Below are positions 6,117 through 57,652 of a stretch of 64,000 nt of DNA, in pieces. Source of the stretch: Bacteroidetes bacterium 43-16 (lineage in GTDB: Bacteria > Bacteroidota > Bacteroidia > Chitinophagales > Chitinophagaceae); the NCBI GenBank assembly GCA_001897525.1, contig MKTB01000033.1, positions 62,001 to 126,000 of the forward strand, given 5' to 3'. The position numbers and the translations under genes are program-made. The stretch's first letter is position 1. The number at the start of each line of letters is the position of its first letter. Below the pieces are notes generated by a model. That model was not told where the DNA came from. It saw nothing but the letters and a program-made list of their open reading frames with translations, and did no database searches.

Positions 6117-6210
6117 AAAGCTTCTTTTTTGAAGAATTGAACAGAACAAAAGTAATCAACGTTTGTTTACATATGCTTAACTCTTGTTTACCAAATTGTT
6201 AATTTAAGAA

Positions 6211-6226
6211 GTAAACATTTATTTAC
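6211..6226. promoter_or_regulatory. Candidate operator GTAAACATTTATTTAC
   Basis: GTAAA-N6-TTTAC inverted repeat between divergent 5679(-) and 6286(+), matching two similar sites upstream of 6940. Confidence 0.5.
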
Positions 6227-6285
6227 ATTATAGTATGCGCCAATTGAGAAAGAGGTAATAACTTTGGTGTATATATATACGACAC

Positions 6286-6855
6286 ATGGAAGGAGCATTT
6301 TTGTTAGAGGTAAGCCGCAGGATCAAAGAATACCGGTATGAAAAACGATTGACGGTACAGCAGCTGGCAGATCGTTCAGGGGTGAGCAAGGGCCTGATCT
6401 CCCAGATCGAGAACGGAAGAAGTATTCCTTCCCTTCCTGTATTGTTCAGCATTATCCAGTCGCTGGAGATGGCCGTAAGCCATTTTTTCAGCGGTATTAA
6501 TTTGCAGATGCCTAATGTGATCGTGCAACGTAAAAAAGACTATGAATCCTTTACCAAAGAGGATGCCAAGGGTTTTTTGTACAAACGTATCTTCGTGAAA
6601 AGCCTTGCTTCTTCTACCGTTGATTTTGTGATCCTGGAGTTAAGCAAAAATGCAAAAAGAGAAGAGGTAGTGACGGATGCTTTTGAATACAAGTATATGA
6701 TACAAGGTGAATGTGAGTACCTGATCAATGGAGAGACTTATGCTTTGTCGGAAGGAGATTCTTTATTTTTTGACGGTCGTCTCCCACACCTGCCCCGGAA
6801 CACGGGTACCGATAAATGCATTATGCTGATCGTTTATTTCTTTAATCAAAAGTAA
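6286..6855 (+). CDS. XRE-family HTH regulator with C-terminal cupin domain
   Basis: RIKEYRYEKRLTVQQLADRSGVSKGLISQIENGRSIPSLPVL helix-turn-helix; cupin-like YMIQGECEYLINGETYALSEGDSLFFDGRLPHLPRN. Confidence 0.93.
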   Translation: MEGAFLLEVSRRIKEYRYEKRLTVQQLADRSGVSKGLISQIENGRSIPSLPVLFSIIQSLEMAVSHFFSGINLQMPNVIVQRKKDYESFTKEDAKGFLYKRIFVKSLASSTVDFVILELSKNAKREEVVTDAFEYKYMIQGECEYLINGETYALSEGDSLFFDGRLPHLPRNTGTDKCIMLIVYFFNQK

Positions 6856-26159: not shown

Positions 26160-26642
26160 TTAATTGCCCTGGAAATAATAGGTTAAGCGCTCCGCTCCTT
26201 TAAGATGTAAAGCGGTGTTGGATAATTTAAACGGGCCGTGGTTGCATACTTTGCACAGCTTGAAAGAGGGTGGTGCTGCGGTGGCTAATTCACGTACATA
26301 ACCGGGCATTTTGAAATCGAAAGTACGTACCGACCTGGAGCGCCCTTCTTCAATCGTGTTTTGCCAGAGCGTGCCCAGGGGAGCTTCAGCACCGGGTTTG
26401 TAGCAATAGCCAAACATGCTGACGATCGTATGAGGGGTGTAAAAAGGATAAATGCCTGAAGTTATAGGATGAAAGGAACCTTCGGCATAAACGAACTGGG
26501 GCTTAGGCATATTAAATGCAGCTTTGGCGATACCTTTTTCATTATCACATTTAAAGCCGACTTTTTCATAAGAGAAATATTTAGCCTGTACCGATAGGGA
26601 TAGGCCAAACAACAGCGAAAGAAGGATAATGTAGCTTTTCAT
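26160..26642 (-). CDS. Exported hypothetical protein
   Basis: Signal peptide; no recognised family. Confidence 0.6.
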   Translation of the reverse strand: MKSYIILLSLLFGLSLSVQAKYFSYEKVGFKCDNEKGIAKAAFNMPKPQFVYAEGSFHPITSGIYPFYTPHTIVSMFGYCYKPGAEAPLGTLWQNTIEEGRSRSVRTFDFKMPGYVRELATAAPPSFKLCKVCNHGPFKLSNTALHLKGAERLTYYFQGN

Positions 26643-26750
26643 CCGTTTTTGTTTTACTTTACATTAAGTTTAACGTATTCTTGACCACAAAAGTATACGA
26701 AAATTATAGATAATTTATCCTTTTTTTAATAAAACTATACCTTTGCCCGG

Positions 26751-27608
26751 ATGAATGAAATCAACTTCTCAATCATTTTGCTTGTCGGATCTATACTGGC
26801 AGGCTTTATAGGTGCACTTACCGGACTTGGCGGGGGCATCATAATCGTACCCTTGCTCACCTTAGGCCTGGGCGTACCCATGAAGTATGCCGTAGCAGCA
26901 TCCCTGATCTCTGTGATAGGAACTTCCAGTGGTGCAGCTGCCGCTTACCTGAAAGAGGGGATCACCAATATGAAAGTAGGGATGTTCCTGCAGATAGCGA
27001 CCACTATAGGTGCGATACTGGGGGCCGTAATGGTCATCCTGGTAGATATACCTGTAGATATGATTGGCATCACTTTCGGACTTGTATTGCTGATCACCGC
27101 TGTGCTCACGGCCCAGAAAAAGCCGGATCACCTGCAGCCTGTAGTGCCGGGATCTGTGGCAGAAAAGCTGCAGCTCAACGGTACTTTCCCGCGCAATGGC
27201 GAAATGATCAGTTATGGTGCCAGCAATCCTTTCCTGGGATCTGTGGTGATGGCTGTAGCTGGATTTCTTTCCGGCCTGCTGGGTGTAGGGGGAGGCGTAT
27301 TCAAAGTACTGGCCATGGATAATATCATGCGCCTGCCGTTCAAAGTGTCTACTACGACCAGTAATTTCATGATCGGGGTAACGGCGCTTGCCAGCAGCAT
27401 TATCTATTTTGCAGGCGGTTATGTAGTGCCGCAGATCGTGGCCCCTATTCTTATCGGGATCATTCTGGGTGCTATGCTGGGCTCAAAGGTTTTGGTGAAG
27501 ATCAATGTAAGTTTATTAAAAAGAATTTTTGCCATCGTCGTAGCTATTATAGCCGTGTATATGATCTATAATGGTTATGTAGGCAATTTTAGTGCAAAGC
27601 ATAAATAG
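26751..27608 (+). CDS. TauE/SafE-family sulfite/anion exporter
   Basis: GFIGALTGLGGGIIIVPLLTLGLGVPMKYAVAASLISVIGTSSGAA; second repeat GFLSGLLGVGGGVFKV. Confidence 0.95.
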   Translation: MNEINFSIILLVGSILAGFIGALTGLGGGIIIVPLLTLGLGVPMKYAVAASLISVIGTSSGAAAAYLKEGITNMKVGMFLQIATTIGAILGAVMVILVDIPVDMIGITFGLVLLITAVLTAQKKPDHLQPVVPGSVAEKLQLNGTFPRNGEMISYGASNPFLGSVVMAVAGFLSGLLGVGGGVFKVLAMDNIMRLPFKVSTTTSNFMIGVTALASSIIYFAGGYVVPQIVAPILIGIILGAMLGSKVLVKINVSLLKRIFAIVVAIIAVYMIYNGYVGNFSAKHK

Positions 27609-27609
27609 C

Positions 27610-27993
27610 ATGGAAGAAAATAAAGCACAGAAAAGAGATTTGGAAACTTTAGTAGGCAATACACTCCGGTATGGGGTGTGGATCTCTTTTGCACTTTCTG
27701 CGATCGGCCTGGTCTGGTTATTGTTCCTTCATCCGGAATCTGCTTTTGCACCGGAGGCATTGCCGCTGGTGCCGGAGAAATTCTCTTTTGGGGCAATGAT
27801 CAAAGGATTGAGTGCCTTTAATCCTGCACAGATCGCAATGCTCGGCAGCCTGGTATTATTGCTGACCCCCTTGTTAAGGGTTGTTTTTGCCTTATTCGGC
27901 TATTGGAAAACGGGTAATAAACTTTATACCTTTATCACCCTTACTGTATTGGTAATCATCTGGATCAGCGTTTTGATCGGGGTGACACATTAA
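27610..27993 (+). CDS. DUF1634 family membrane protein
   Basis: Follows TauE/SafE gene; LETLVGNTLRYGVWISFALSAIGLVWLLF... small multi-TM protein. Listed ORF starts at 27592; MEENKAQKR start at 27610. Confidence 0.85.
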   Translation: MEENKAQKRDLETLVGNTLRYGVWISFALSAIGLVWLLFLHPESAFAPEALPLVPEKFSFGAMIKGLSAFNPAQIAMLGSLVLLLTPLLRVVFALFGYWKTGNKLYTFITLTVLVIIWISVLIGVTH

Positions 27994-28144
27994 TTGTGAA
28001 TTATTAATGGTGAATTATTAATTGTAAGTACGTAATCGTAAATTGTAAGCAGGGAATTGTAAACCGACAGCTAATCATTAACCACTTATCACTCATCACT
28101 TATCACTTATCACTTATCACTCATCATTAATAATTAACCATTAC
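27991..28144. repeat. Degenerate heptanucleotide repeat array in two inverted arms filling a convergent intergenic region
   Basis: Left arm 7-mers from 27991: TAATTGT GAATTAT TAATGGT GAATTAT TAATTGT AAGTACG TAATCGT AAATTGT AAGCAGG GAATTGT. Right arm (minus strand from 28143): TAATGGT TAATTAT TAATGAT GAGTGAT AAGTGAT AAGTGAT AAGTGAT GAGTGAT AAGTGGT TAATGAT. Confidence 0.85.
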
Positions 28145-28738
28145 CTACAGTTCCTTCAATTGCTCTCTGCGGAGGAAATATTTACCTAAAATGTCAAATT
28201 CCAGGTTAACGGCATCTCCTGCCTGCATATAATGAAATCCGGTATGCTCAAAAGTATATGGGATAATGGCTACCTGGAAAGTCGTCTTGCTTACATTAAA
28301 TGCCGTAAGGCTTACCCCGTTGATACACACAGAGCCTTTCTCGATCATTAAGGGCGCAAAAGATTCCATAAAGCTGAACGTGATCAGGTGGCTGCCGTCC
28401 CTGGCTTCTACCTGCTCACATCTTCCGGTGCCGTCCACATGTCCTTGTACTACGTGCCCGTCGAGGCGCGTGCCCAGTTGCAGGGCCAGTTCCAGGTTCA
28501 CAGATTTGCCGGAGGTCCATTGTGCCAGGGTTGTTTTCTGTAAGGTTTCCTCAATAGCCGTAACTTTATAATCACCGTCGCCTATGGACACTACCGTGAG
28601 GCAGACCCCGTCATGGGCTACCGACTGGTCGATGGATAACTCGCTGTATAAGGGAGATTGAATGGTGAAATGTACGTTGCTGCCTTCCTGTTCTACCCGG
28701 CTGATGGTGCCGGTATGCTTGATAATTCCTGTAAACAT
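28145..28738 (-). CDS. ribE: Riboflavin synthase alpha chain
   Basis: MFTGIIKHTGTISRVEQEGSNVHFTI...VAHDGVCLTVV...GHVDGTG...KGSVCINGVSLT. Confidence 0.96.
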   Translation of the reverse strand: MFTGIIKHTGTISRVEQEGSNVHFTIQSPLYSELSIDQSVAHDGVCLTVVSIGDGDYKVTAIEETLQKTTLAQWTSGKSVNLELALQLGTRLDGHVVQGHVDGTGRCEQVEARDGSHLITFSFMESFAPLMIEKGSVCINGVSLTAFNVSKTTFQVAIIPYTFEHTGFHYMQAGDAVNLEFDILGKYFLRREQLKEL

Positions 28739-28739
28739 C

Positions 28740-29308
28740 TTATTGTTTTGTGGCATAGCCTGCATGAAGATAACTACCGTCCGGTACGTTTTCATTCATC
28801 TGGATATGTATCCTGTTTCCTGTTTCTTCAAAAATAACCCGGTACATGCCGGAAATAGTATCTGTAGGGTTGCAGAACAACTGCCCCCCCTCTGTATATT
28901 GAATTAAAGTATCGGTCATGGCAAGACCAAACCGGTTAGCGGTAAGTTTTAAGGTGTTGCCGCTGCAAAAGCCGTTTAAAGTTAATTTGTTCCTGAAGGT
29001 ATCGGTAGCCGGGTTCTGGGCCGTAAAAGTCAGGGTATAGTTTTGTGCACGCACAAAAGTCATGTCGGGCAGGTAGACAGAATCCTGGAAGAGCCAGGTG
29101 CCTTCAAAGAGTTCCGTCGGGTAGATGCAGACCGAGTTGTCCGGTATGCCGGGAAAGCTGTCATTGTAGTTGGCCGCAATAGGATCATTACAATACTTTC
29201 TCGTTAAGCCGAGGTCAGAAGGTGCCGGGTCTTTATACTTTTCACAGGCGATAAAGCCGCTAATGATTGCAAGTGCTGCTATTAATAAGAAGAGTTGAAC
29301 TTTTTTCA
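28740..29308 (-). CDS. Hypothetical lipoprotein
   Basis: MKKVQLFLLIAALAIISGFIACEKYKD lipobox. Confidence 0.7.
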
Positions 29309-29397
29309 TGAGAACTGGATAACAAAAGTACATGATTACCGCCTTTTTTGCACCTTTTGGGGCAATAATGTAAGCCGGCCTATGATACTATATAAAA

Positions 29398-29438
29398 CGG
29401 GAGGCTGAACAAAATCTTGTTTAGCCTCCCGAAAAAAA
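29398..29438 (-). terminator. Terminator between 29456(-) and 28740(-)
   Basis: CGGGAGGCT...AGCCTCCCG with T/A tracts. Confidence 0.8.
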
Positions 29439-29455
29439 TTATGGTTTAGAAAAAA

Positions 29456-29824
29456 TTACTTGTGTTTCTCATCAGTAGCAACTAAATCCTGAACGAATTT
29501 AGAAATAGATGCAATACGGCTGGTATTTAAAACATAGTGGATGAATTTACCATCACGTTCCGTGTTCACAATATTCGCTCTGCGCAAAATAGCCAAATGT
29601 TGAGAAGCTACAGACTGTTCCAGTCTTAATTTTACATAGATGTCTGTAACATTCATGCGCTTATGCTCCTCTAGCAATTTGATGATCTGCTGACGCAATT
29701 TGTGATTAATTGCTCTCAATGTCATAGCTGCACTCTTTACGGCAATGTAATCCAACTTTGTCTGCTCTTCTGAGTTGTCATCTTTTCTAATCACCAATGT
29801 ACTGGCTGTGAGTTGTTCCATCAT
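29456..29824 (-). CDS. ArsR-like winged-helix transcriptional regulator
   Basis: INHKLRQQIIKLLEEHKRMNVTDIYVKLRLEQSVASQHLAILRRANIVNTERDGKFIHYVLN. Confidence 0.9.
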   Translation of the reverse strand: MMEQLTASTLVIRKDDNSEEQTKLDYIAVKSAAMTLRAINHKLRQQIIKLLEEHKRMNVTDIYVKLRLEQSVASQHLAILRRANIVNTERDGKFIHYVLNTSRIASISKFVQDLVATDEKHK

Positions 29825-30122
29825 TATATATTTAAATTAAATTGTGTTAATTAATTTTTACTTATGTCAGGTACAGGTGTATTAGTTAAAGGCATCAGTT
29901 TTAAGAGACCAATGTCACAGGAGTGATTGTTAGTTTAAGGTATATTGACAGCAAATATATACCAATTAGCTTAAATACTAATATAAAATTTTTATAAAAG
30001 AGTGTAGTAAAATTCCTACAAGATTTTTATCGATTCTATGAAAGCCTTTGCTGTACTTGCTTTCAGCAGATCATTTGAATATTTTAAGAAGGATAAGCAG
30101 GAACTTGAATCTTAAATATTTG

Positions 30123-56194: not shown

Positions 56195-57652
56195 TTGTGC
56201 TCTTCAAATAAAAAAATCGGGGTTAAAGATTTGGAATTAGCATTTAGTACAGCAGAGCAATATATCATGGAACTGGTCAGCCGGGCAGCAGCCCATATCG
56301 GCGTGGCCGCCTATCCGATCGGGGGATTTGTGAGGGATAAGATCCTCGACAGGCCCACGAAAGATATCGATATTGTTTGCGACGGAGATGGCATTGATCT
56401 GGCCCATGCCGTGGCCGCACTATTGCCTCAAACGACCAAAGTTGCTTTTTTTAAAACCTACGGTACCGCCCAAATGCGTATCCGTGGTATAGATGTAGAG
56501 TTTGTAGGGGCCCGTAAAGAGTCTTACAGCCCGGATTCCAGGAATCCTTCTGTGAGCCCGGGGACACTGGAAGATGACCAGAAGCGCAGAGATTTTACCA
56601 TAAATGCCCTGGCGATCAGCCTGGCACCGGATAGCTATGGCACTGTTATTGATCCTTTTGACGGCTTGCTCGATATCCGGGACAAGATCATCAGGACTCC
56701 CCTGTTGCCGGACCAGACCTTCAGCGATGATCCGCTGAGGATGATGCGCGCCATTCGTTTTGCCACACAATTGAATTTTCACATTGAAGTATCCTGCTTT
56801 GAAAGTATTTGCCAGCAAAAAGACCGGATCAAGATCATTTCCAAAGAGCGGATTGCCGATGAATTGAATAAGATCATGATGAGCGCCAAGCCTTCGATAG
56901 GCTTCGACCTGCTGTACCGCAGCGGCCTGCTGGACATCATCCTGCCACAGCTGGCAGCCCTTTCGGGAACAGAATATATCGATAATAAAGGGCATAAGGA
57001 CAATTTCTACCATTCCATCCAGGTATTGGACAATATCGTGCCGAATACCGATAACCTGTGGTTGCGCTGGGCAGCCCTCTTGCATGATGTGGGTAAGGCT
57101 CCTACCAAGCGCTTTGAGAAAGGCCATGGCTGGACCTTTCACGGCCATGAGGTCGTGAGCGGCAAGATGGTTCCCAAGATATTTGGCAGCCTTAAACTTC
57201 CCTTGAATGAGAAGATGCTCTATACCCGTAAGATCATAGAACTGCATCACCGCCCGGTAGCCCTTACTAAAGAGAACATTACCGATTCTGCCATCAGGAG
57301 ACTGCTGTTTGATGCCGGTGAAGATATTGATGACCTGATGACCTTGTGCGAAGCCGATATCACCTCAAAGAATGCGCAAAAGGTGAAGAAGTTCCTGGAG
57401 AACTTTGAACTGGTGCGGCAGAAATTGAAAGAGATCGAAGAAAAAGATAAAATAAGAAACTGGCAACCGCCTATTTCCGGGGAAGAGATCATGGAGACCT
57501 TTGGTCTGCAGCCCTCCAGGGATGTGGGACTGATCAAAACTGCCATCCGCGAAGCTATTTTAGATGGTGTGATTTTAAATAATTATGAAGCAGCAAGAAG
57601 CTATATGCTGGCGTTTGCAGAATCATTATCTTTGAAACCACAAAATAAATAA
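56195..57652 (+). CDS. CCA tRNA nucleotidyltransferase / poly(A) polymerase family with HD domain
   Basis: YPIGGFVRDKILDRPTKDIDIVCDGDG, RRDFTINALAISL, DDPLRMMRAIRFATQLNF, HDVGKAPTK. Exact start uncertain (non-ATG or downstream). Confidence 0.93.
   Translation: MCSSNKKIGVKDLELAFSTAEQYIMELVSRAAAHIGVAAYPIGGFVRDKILDRPTKDIDIVCDGDGIDLAHAVAALLPQTTKVAFFKTYGTAQMRIRGIDVEFVGARKESYSPDSRNPSVSPGTLEDDQKRRDFTINALAISLAPDSYGTVIDPFDGLLDIRDKIIRTPLLPDQTFSDDPLRMMRAIRFATQLNFHIEVSCFESICQQKDRIKIISKERIADELNKIMMSAKPSIGFDLLYRSGLLDIILPQLAALSGTEYIDNKGHKDNFYHSIQVLDNIVPNTDNLWLRWAALLHDVGKAPTKRFEKGHGWTFHGHEVVSGKMVPKIFGSLKLPLNEKMLYTRKIIELHHRPVALTKENITDSAIRRLLFDAGEDIDDLMTLCEADITSKNAQKVKKFLENFELVRQKLKEIEEKDKIRNWQPPISGEEIMETFGLQPSRDVGLIKTAIREAILDGVILNNYEAARSYMLAFAESLSLKPQNK

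Follow-up and report, generated by a model that had tools for sequence, protein, structure and literature searches.

In the window, by which we mean the whole 64-kb stretch of DNA analyzed, the DUF1634 gene and the gene ribE converge on a gap of 154 bp, which is occupied by two head-to-head arms of heptanucleotide units, each running from a stop codon (Table 1). The stop codon of ribE lies one base beyond the right arm. When the units are read in a single phase against the strict consensus NARTKRT, 7 of the 11 units of the left arm fit, the first five perfectly before the arm decays, and in the right arm all of the 10 consecutive units fit. The decayed part of the left arm still shows raised identity at lags 14, 21 and 28. 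Across the whole gap lag-7 identity amounts to 0.619, compared with 0.294 ± 0.035 in 5000 dinucleotide shuffles (maximum 0.42; none of the 5000 reached the observed value), and this is by far the highest figure in the window. The coordinates and the 7-bp units of the original prediction are right, as are its heptad phasing, two inverted arms and stop-to-stop placement; the periodicity is far above that of the shuffles. The 17-bp inverted repeat that it had placed at the ends of the arms is present as well.

Table 1. Coordinates of the array in the DUF1634–ribE gap (window positions) and of further repeats in the genome of the window (G000) and in genus g11
Feature	Position	Strand	Remark
DUF1634 gene (PF07843)	27610..27993	+	TAA stop 27991-27993 is the first 3 bases of the first heptamer
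Left arm, perfect part	27991..28025	+	TAATTGT, GAATTAT, TAATGGT, GAATTAT, TAATTGT
17-bp inverted repeat, left half	28005..28021	+	16/17 matched with 28127-28143
Left arm, decayed part	28026..28063	+	AAGTACG, TAATCGT, AAATTGT, AAGCAGG, GAATTGT, ...
Unphased centre ("loop")	28064..28073	none	about 10 bp
Right arm	28074..28143	-	10 consecutive heptamers, read down from 28143: TAATGGT, TAATTAT, TAATGAT, GAGTGAT, AAGTGAT (three times), GAGTGAT, AAGTGGT, TAATGAT
Inner block of the right arm	28081..28122	-	six GTGATRA-type units within the TAATKRT-type arm
17-bp inverted repeat, right half	28127..28143	-	
ribE (riboflavin synthase, PF00677)	28145..28744	-	convergent; TAG stop 28147-28145
GATGTCTCCACTCGCTATCGCTCGGTCGACATGACG-type repeat, G000	C17:265906-266434, 485558-485895, 527260-527622; C15:236927-237458		
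Phrase repeats (CGCAAAG etc.)	L158 11001-11189 and G186/G115 orthologues; G014 C2 gaps 113285, 114681, 141926		
Palindromic repeat GGCTTCGACAAGCTCAGCCTGAC...GTCAGGCTGAGCTTGTCGAAGCC	L158 1758-1896; also G014 C2 gap 111936 and L186		

The proposal that one heptamer had been amplified in place, head-to-head, fares less well, since the right arm mixes two words: its outer units are of the TAATKRT type, and the six inner GTGATRA-type units lie between two TAATGAT units. We regard the inner block as an in-phase expansion or insertion; its word recurs at dozens of other loci of the same genome. On the strand of the gene that it follows, each arm is nearly devoid of C. As had been stated at the outset, the gap holds no intrinsic terminator (GC-rich hairpin followed by a U-tract), and Rfam 15 gave no match above gathering score within 26500-30000. 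The array would be transcribed as 3′ untranslated sequence of both the DUF1634 gene and ribE, separating their ends.

Arrays in the same genome and in relatives

The same junction was compared in related species. The closest relative in the genome collection, Taibaiella sp. MAG-390 (G004; 87% in ribE), carries there not an unrelated sequence but a different, shorter heptamer array, whose two heptad arms pair into an almost perfect stem around a loop of 8 nt and which is predicted to fold into a strong hairpin (z -5.1). Given this relative, the host of the window is a Taibaiella-like member of the Chitinophagaceae. In three congeners (G001–G003) the stop codons of the DUF1634 gene and ribE overlap without any spacer, and the word "spacer", which had been offered as one possible role of the array, is therefore literally true. 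The element is thus present in the window genome and G004 and absent from G001–G003, and from this distribution over five species a gain in the common ancestor of the first two would be the simplest reading. In a check for the outgroup state of the junction, the DUF1634–ribE synteny was found, among 31 loci, in the G004 record only.

Within the window genome (4.73 Mb) such arrays are abundant: a blastn search with the window array returned 84 matches and dozens of related arrays. The census of arms covers 1.62 Mb of this genome, taken without selection. In a lag scan of this part 30 regions of period 7 were found, compared with 0–3 for lags 5, 6, 8, 9 and 10, and a stricter scan gave 23 regions, against 2–4 at lags other than multiples of 7, where the matches were mostly runs of N. 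Period 7 is the sole enriched period in the 1.62 Mb. A reversed-sequence control for a position-weight scan could not serve its purpose, the reversed unit fitting that profile as well, and lags of other periods were scanned in its place.

The arms are not placed at random with respect to the genes: they lie in intergenic gaps, lack C on the strand of the gene ahead of them and typically start at the stop codon of that gene. Of the 28 period-7 arms that could be assigned to a gap, 13 lie in convergent and 15 in tandem gaps, and none lies in a divergent gap, yet divergent gaps make up 27% of the gap bases (binomial about 2e-4; the gene calls are simple and ORF-based, so that a few gap types may be wrong). 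When arms were defined by the profile, 25 of 40 had a same-strand stop codon no more than 25 nt from their start, compared with 11% of random placements, and only 3 of the 40 had one at this distance from their opposite end. Single long sense arms are common in this genome. Only four facing arm pairs were seen, and beyond the outer 17 bp these match no better than random. There are also perfect runs, for example of seven or eight GTGATGA units, which look like plain slippage.

Two further features of this genome were noted. A second dispersed repeat (GATGTCTCCACTCGCTATCGCTCGGTCGACATGACG and its relatives; Table 1) often adjoins the heptamer arrays. The gene purK (C17:513904-515043) has GTGAAAA-type heptamer arms on both sides in inverted orientation and is the only gene so framed in the 1.62-Mb sample.

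For the search across genomes we used a C-free run of five heptamers as pattern. It occurs in 185 of 299 Chitinophagaceae genomes (84 of 104 genera) and in 86 of 158 genomes across Bacteroidota, counts for which a reversed-pattern control also scores high, the reversed unit fitting too, so that the statistical weight rests on the period-specific lag scans. Each genome has its own set of array words, some of which recur in distant genera. In a sample of 30 arrays, one per genome from other members of the family, 18 had a same-strand stop codon at most 25 nt from their start, and 6 had one at the opposite end.

Anatomy and turnover of the elements in genus g11

The anatomy of the elements is clear in the related, repeat-rich genus g11, where 400 kb of the genome G014 contain 67 regions of period 7 and 36 of period 8, with a facing arm pair in 34 gaps. 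The elements are inverted repeats in which arms of tandem 7- or 8-mers surround a loop. Both arms of a gap are built from the same word (median alignment score 22 versus 6 for random pairs). We also considered that arms frame genes as cassettes and rejected this, as arm pairs flanking one gene score 6, like random pairs. Arms in G014 often start within the last codons of a gene, so that the array supplies the stop codon, and in tandem gaps the second arm can reach the next start codon and leave no room for a promoter. The loops measure 18-505 bp and some are common to a word family; in convergent gaps the loop often holds an intrinsic terminator. One g11 element has full-length matches, loop included, at about 30 other loci on both strands.

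Beside the heptamer arms there is a class of octamers (TAACTGAA, AAAATTTG) with the same paired-arm anatomy (L146-L165 of G014, e.g., C2:108678-109892). The TAACTGAA elements have a conserved 40-bp loop, and their word exceeds the known TAACTGA heptamer by one base. Searches with the octamer element gave no full match among plasmids, with a single partial match of 37 bp (Pantoea), and no match among phages.

Orthologous gaps were compared between G014, G186 and G115, which share about 79-94% DNA identity. At a number of these the genes are the same and the flanks conserved, and both arms are written in one word in one species and in a different one in another species. At gap 110201 the three species have three words and two periods (the 7-mers AAAATTC and GTTGTTA and the 8-mer TAACTGAA), and in G014 a relic of the octamer word survives next to the current element. 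Words are also switched at gaps 156587, 104581, 97723, 87629 and 57546; at 87629 orthologous arms differ in unit number, and at 57546 G014 and G186 retain the left arm only. The loops change as well. Eighteen pairwise comparisons of related loops, assessed against shuffled loops, yielded 11 in direct and 7 in inverted orientation, the inversions falling at five sites (46551, 92049, 108678, 109598 and 137781; explicit for 108678, 109598 and 92049), while gap 49647 of G115 is inverted under one definition of the arms and not under the other. Word switching and loop inversion are behaviours that simple repeats should not show. Matched arm pairs, and loops that are shared between loci or inverted, also speak against the amplification in place mentioned above.

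Origin and possible function

We consider it somewhat probable (about 0.55) that what fills the gap in the window is a degenerate copy of a dispersed inverted-repeat element, MITE-like and with arms of tandem heptamers. This reading fits best because of the dispersed copies, the inverted arms, the presence and absence at one site, the shared loops and the replacement by other families in place. It is in g11, another genus than that of the window, that arms are shown to match, loops to be shared or inverted and words to be switched, and we infer that the window copy shares the origin of the g11 elements, that their movement is transposition and that they have no strong function. Against this reading stand the weakly paired anatomy in the genome of the window, with its common single arms and its four facing pairs that match no better than random beyond the outer 17 bp, and the long perfect runs of one unit there. 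As in MITEs, there are many dispersed short non-coding copies, terminal inverted repeats (the matched arms of g11; in the window the outer 17 bp, weaker inside) and presence or absence at orthologous sites (DUF1634–ribE). No target-site duplication or clean excision was found at the empty sites compared, which are not close in sequence, nor was a transposase with matching terminal repeats found in the search for Y1_Tnp (PF01797). As this was the one transposase family tried, we speak of a MITE-like element rather than of a MITE. A RAYT/IS200-type Y1 transposase was rejected as the mover: no such gene is framed by arms, and its occurrence does not correlate with array abundance, PF01797 being absent in the array-rich genomes G275, G092 and G004 and abundant in the array-free G087.

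The best-fitting course of events for such a MITE-like element is as follows. It would have been gained between the abutting stops of the DUF1634 gene and ribE in the ancestor of the window genome and G004. Its arms would then have become longer or shorter by whole-unit slippage, in the course of which the GTGATRA block was presumably imported or amplified. At the same gene-end sites one element may give way, by re-acquisition or overwriting, to another whose arms are written in different words, and the loop would be flipped when its two arms recombine; the change of word and the inversion are both observed in g11. The element probably persists because gene ends tolerate it and not for transcription termination; placement at stops would follow if insertions are not tolerated in coding sequence or in divergent gaps, which bear promoters.

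Plain slippage of a heptanucleotide, as in an STRR or long simple sequence repeat, would only require that the polymerase slips in 7-bp steps wherever this is tolerated, mostly after stop codons. The dominance of period 7, the perfect GTGATGA runs and the different unit numbers of the orthologous arms at gap 87629 agree with it, and Mrazek proposed slippage for heptamers, at least as cited in PMC4679880. We find it doubtful as the origin of the array, since it accounts neither for matched inverted arms within a gap nor for loops common to several loci, inverted loops, the replacement of the word in both arms at one site or the fact that just one strand is nearly devoid of C.

A more far-reaching interpretation starts from the phylum-wide occurrence of elements at gene ends with a genome-wide lexicon of 7-8-bp words, with paired arms that are rewritten jointly and loops that invert. 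In that case an undescribed enzyme system, and not slippage or ordinary transposition, would write or convert the arms, which we think unlikely.

The array might also have a function at the 3′ end of genes, in that the C-free, stop-rich arm or the hairpin ends transcription, protects the 3′ ends of the mRNA or backs up the translation stop. The arms lie at gene 3′ ends in sense orientation, they change jointly as inverted pairs, and the G004 element forms a strong hairpin. REP elements, which have the same placement, act at the RNA level. The arms, however, neither replace nor accompany intrinsic terminators. Terminator-like sites were found in 8/20 convergent gaps with arms and 7/18 without in G014, and the respective numbers in the window genome are 2/9 and 51/137, on which grounds the arms were rejected as substitute terminators (Fisher p 0.5-1). 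With the terminators in the loops of convergent G014 gaps, the opposing arms do not share an RNA, second arms of tandem gaps that abut the next start codon leave no space for a promoter, and the congeners G001–G003 do without an array. The window array itself folds as RNA only modestly better than shuffled sequence (z -1.0 and -2.0). The bidirectional terminator suggested originally is thus not supported, and we judge that the array is not primarily a terminator; a 3′-end function in the wider sense appears quite unlikely to us. Rho loading on the G-free antisense arm in tandem gaps, where the arm directly precedes the next start codon, is likewise unlikely. Very improbable is an inverton-like regulatory switch, in which a dedicated recombinase flips the loop and alters the expression of the flanking genes: loop orientation does differ between species at five sites, but the elements lie mostly in convergent or tandem gaps beside stops and not at promoters, the arms vary by locus, and homologous recombination between the arms would suffice.

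Relation to known repeats

Among known systems the BrickBuilt MITE of Porphyromonas gingivalis (PMC4596501) is also from Bacteroidota and is likewise short, non-coding, dispersed and always intergenic, with tandem repeats and inverted ends. It has an internal minisatellite of 23-bp units, small inverted ends and 19 copies in one species (PMC4596501), whereas in the elements described here tandem 7- or 8-mers make up the arms themselves, a genome has several word families, the occurrence is phylum-wide, and at orthologous sites words are switched and loops inverted. The REP, PU and BIME palindromes (GTAG and CGTC families) share with the elements their nature as intergenic inverted repeats 3′ of coding regions and the preference for convergent and unidirectional gaps (PMC3733652). 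REPs are, however, tagged palindromes of 20-40 bp, the GTAG types being tied to RAYT transposases (PMC3733652), and the elements described here have heptad arms, no tagged palindrome and no link to Y1/RAYT (PF01797).

The likeness to heptanucleotide repeats elsewhere that had been pointed out holds for the tandem intergenic 7-mers, which occur in the cyanobacterial STRRs and in the TAACTGA repeats (PMC4679880), and TAACTGA resembles the octamer TAACTGAA. TAACTGA repeats are known from Beggiatoaceae, Cyanobacteria and five Bacteroidetes; in the BOGUAY genome 169 sets are direct and one is indirect, most lie upstream of start codons, and related words are said to be rare (PMC4679880). The present arrays differ by inverted arms, many words and anchoring at stop codons. 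Neither are they direct repeats that change only by unit number, given the inverted arms, the loop inversion and the word replacement. With the invertons of gut Bacteroidota they share inverted repeats around a segment that inverts, the inversion being seen here between species only. Invertons lie near surface-modification genes and have dedicated recombinases (see PMC11892184), and the elements described here lie at gene 3′ ends and have no known recombinase. We found nothing in the open-access literature that describes heptad arms in pairs whose words switch and whose loops invert; as the search was confined to open-access papers, the novelty is provisional.

For decades intergenic heptamer arrays of bacteria have been recorded as simple repeats with no known use. 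Our results suggest that in Bacteroidota many of them belong to dispersed elements, as paired arms in inverted orientation, and that these elements are subject to turnover, word switching and loop flipping at gene ends. The old puzzle becomes testable with respect to the enzyme, to new insertions between strains and to the cost or function for gene ends, and caution is advised in reading heptamer arrays as terminators or local slippage.

In g11 we also came across other intergenic sequences that vary between species. Inverted phrase repeats with words such as CGCAAAG, CACAGAG, CACTAAG and ATCCGTG swap at orthologous gaps, and a palindromic repeat (Table 1) is present in some species and missing from the same gap in others. 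At L158 6004-6649 G014 has a segment of some 640 bp, including a small ORF at 6159-6551, of which nothing is present at the corresponding site in G115 (L187), and an octamer element borders this segment on one side.
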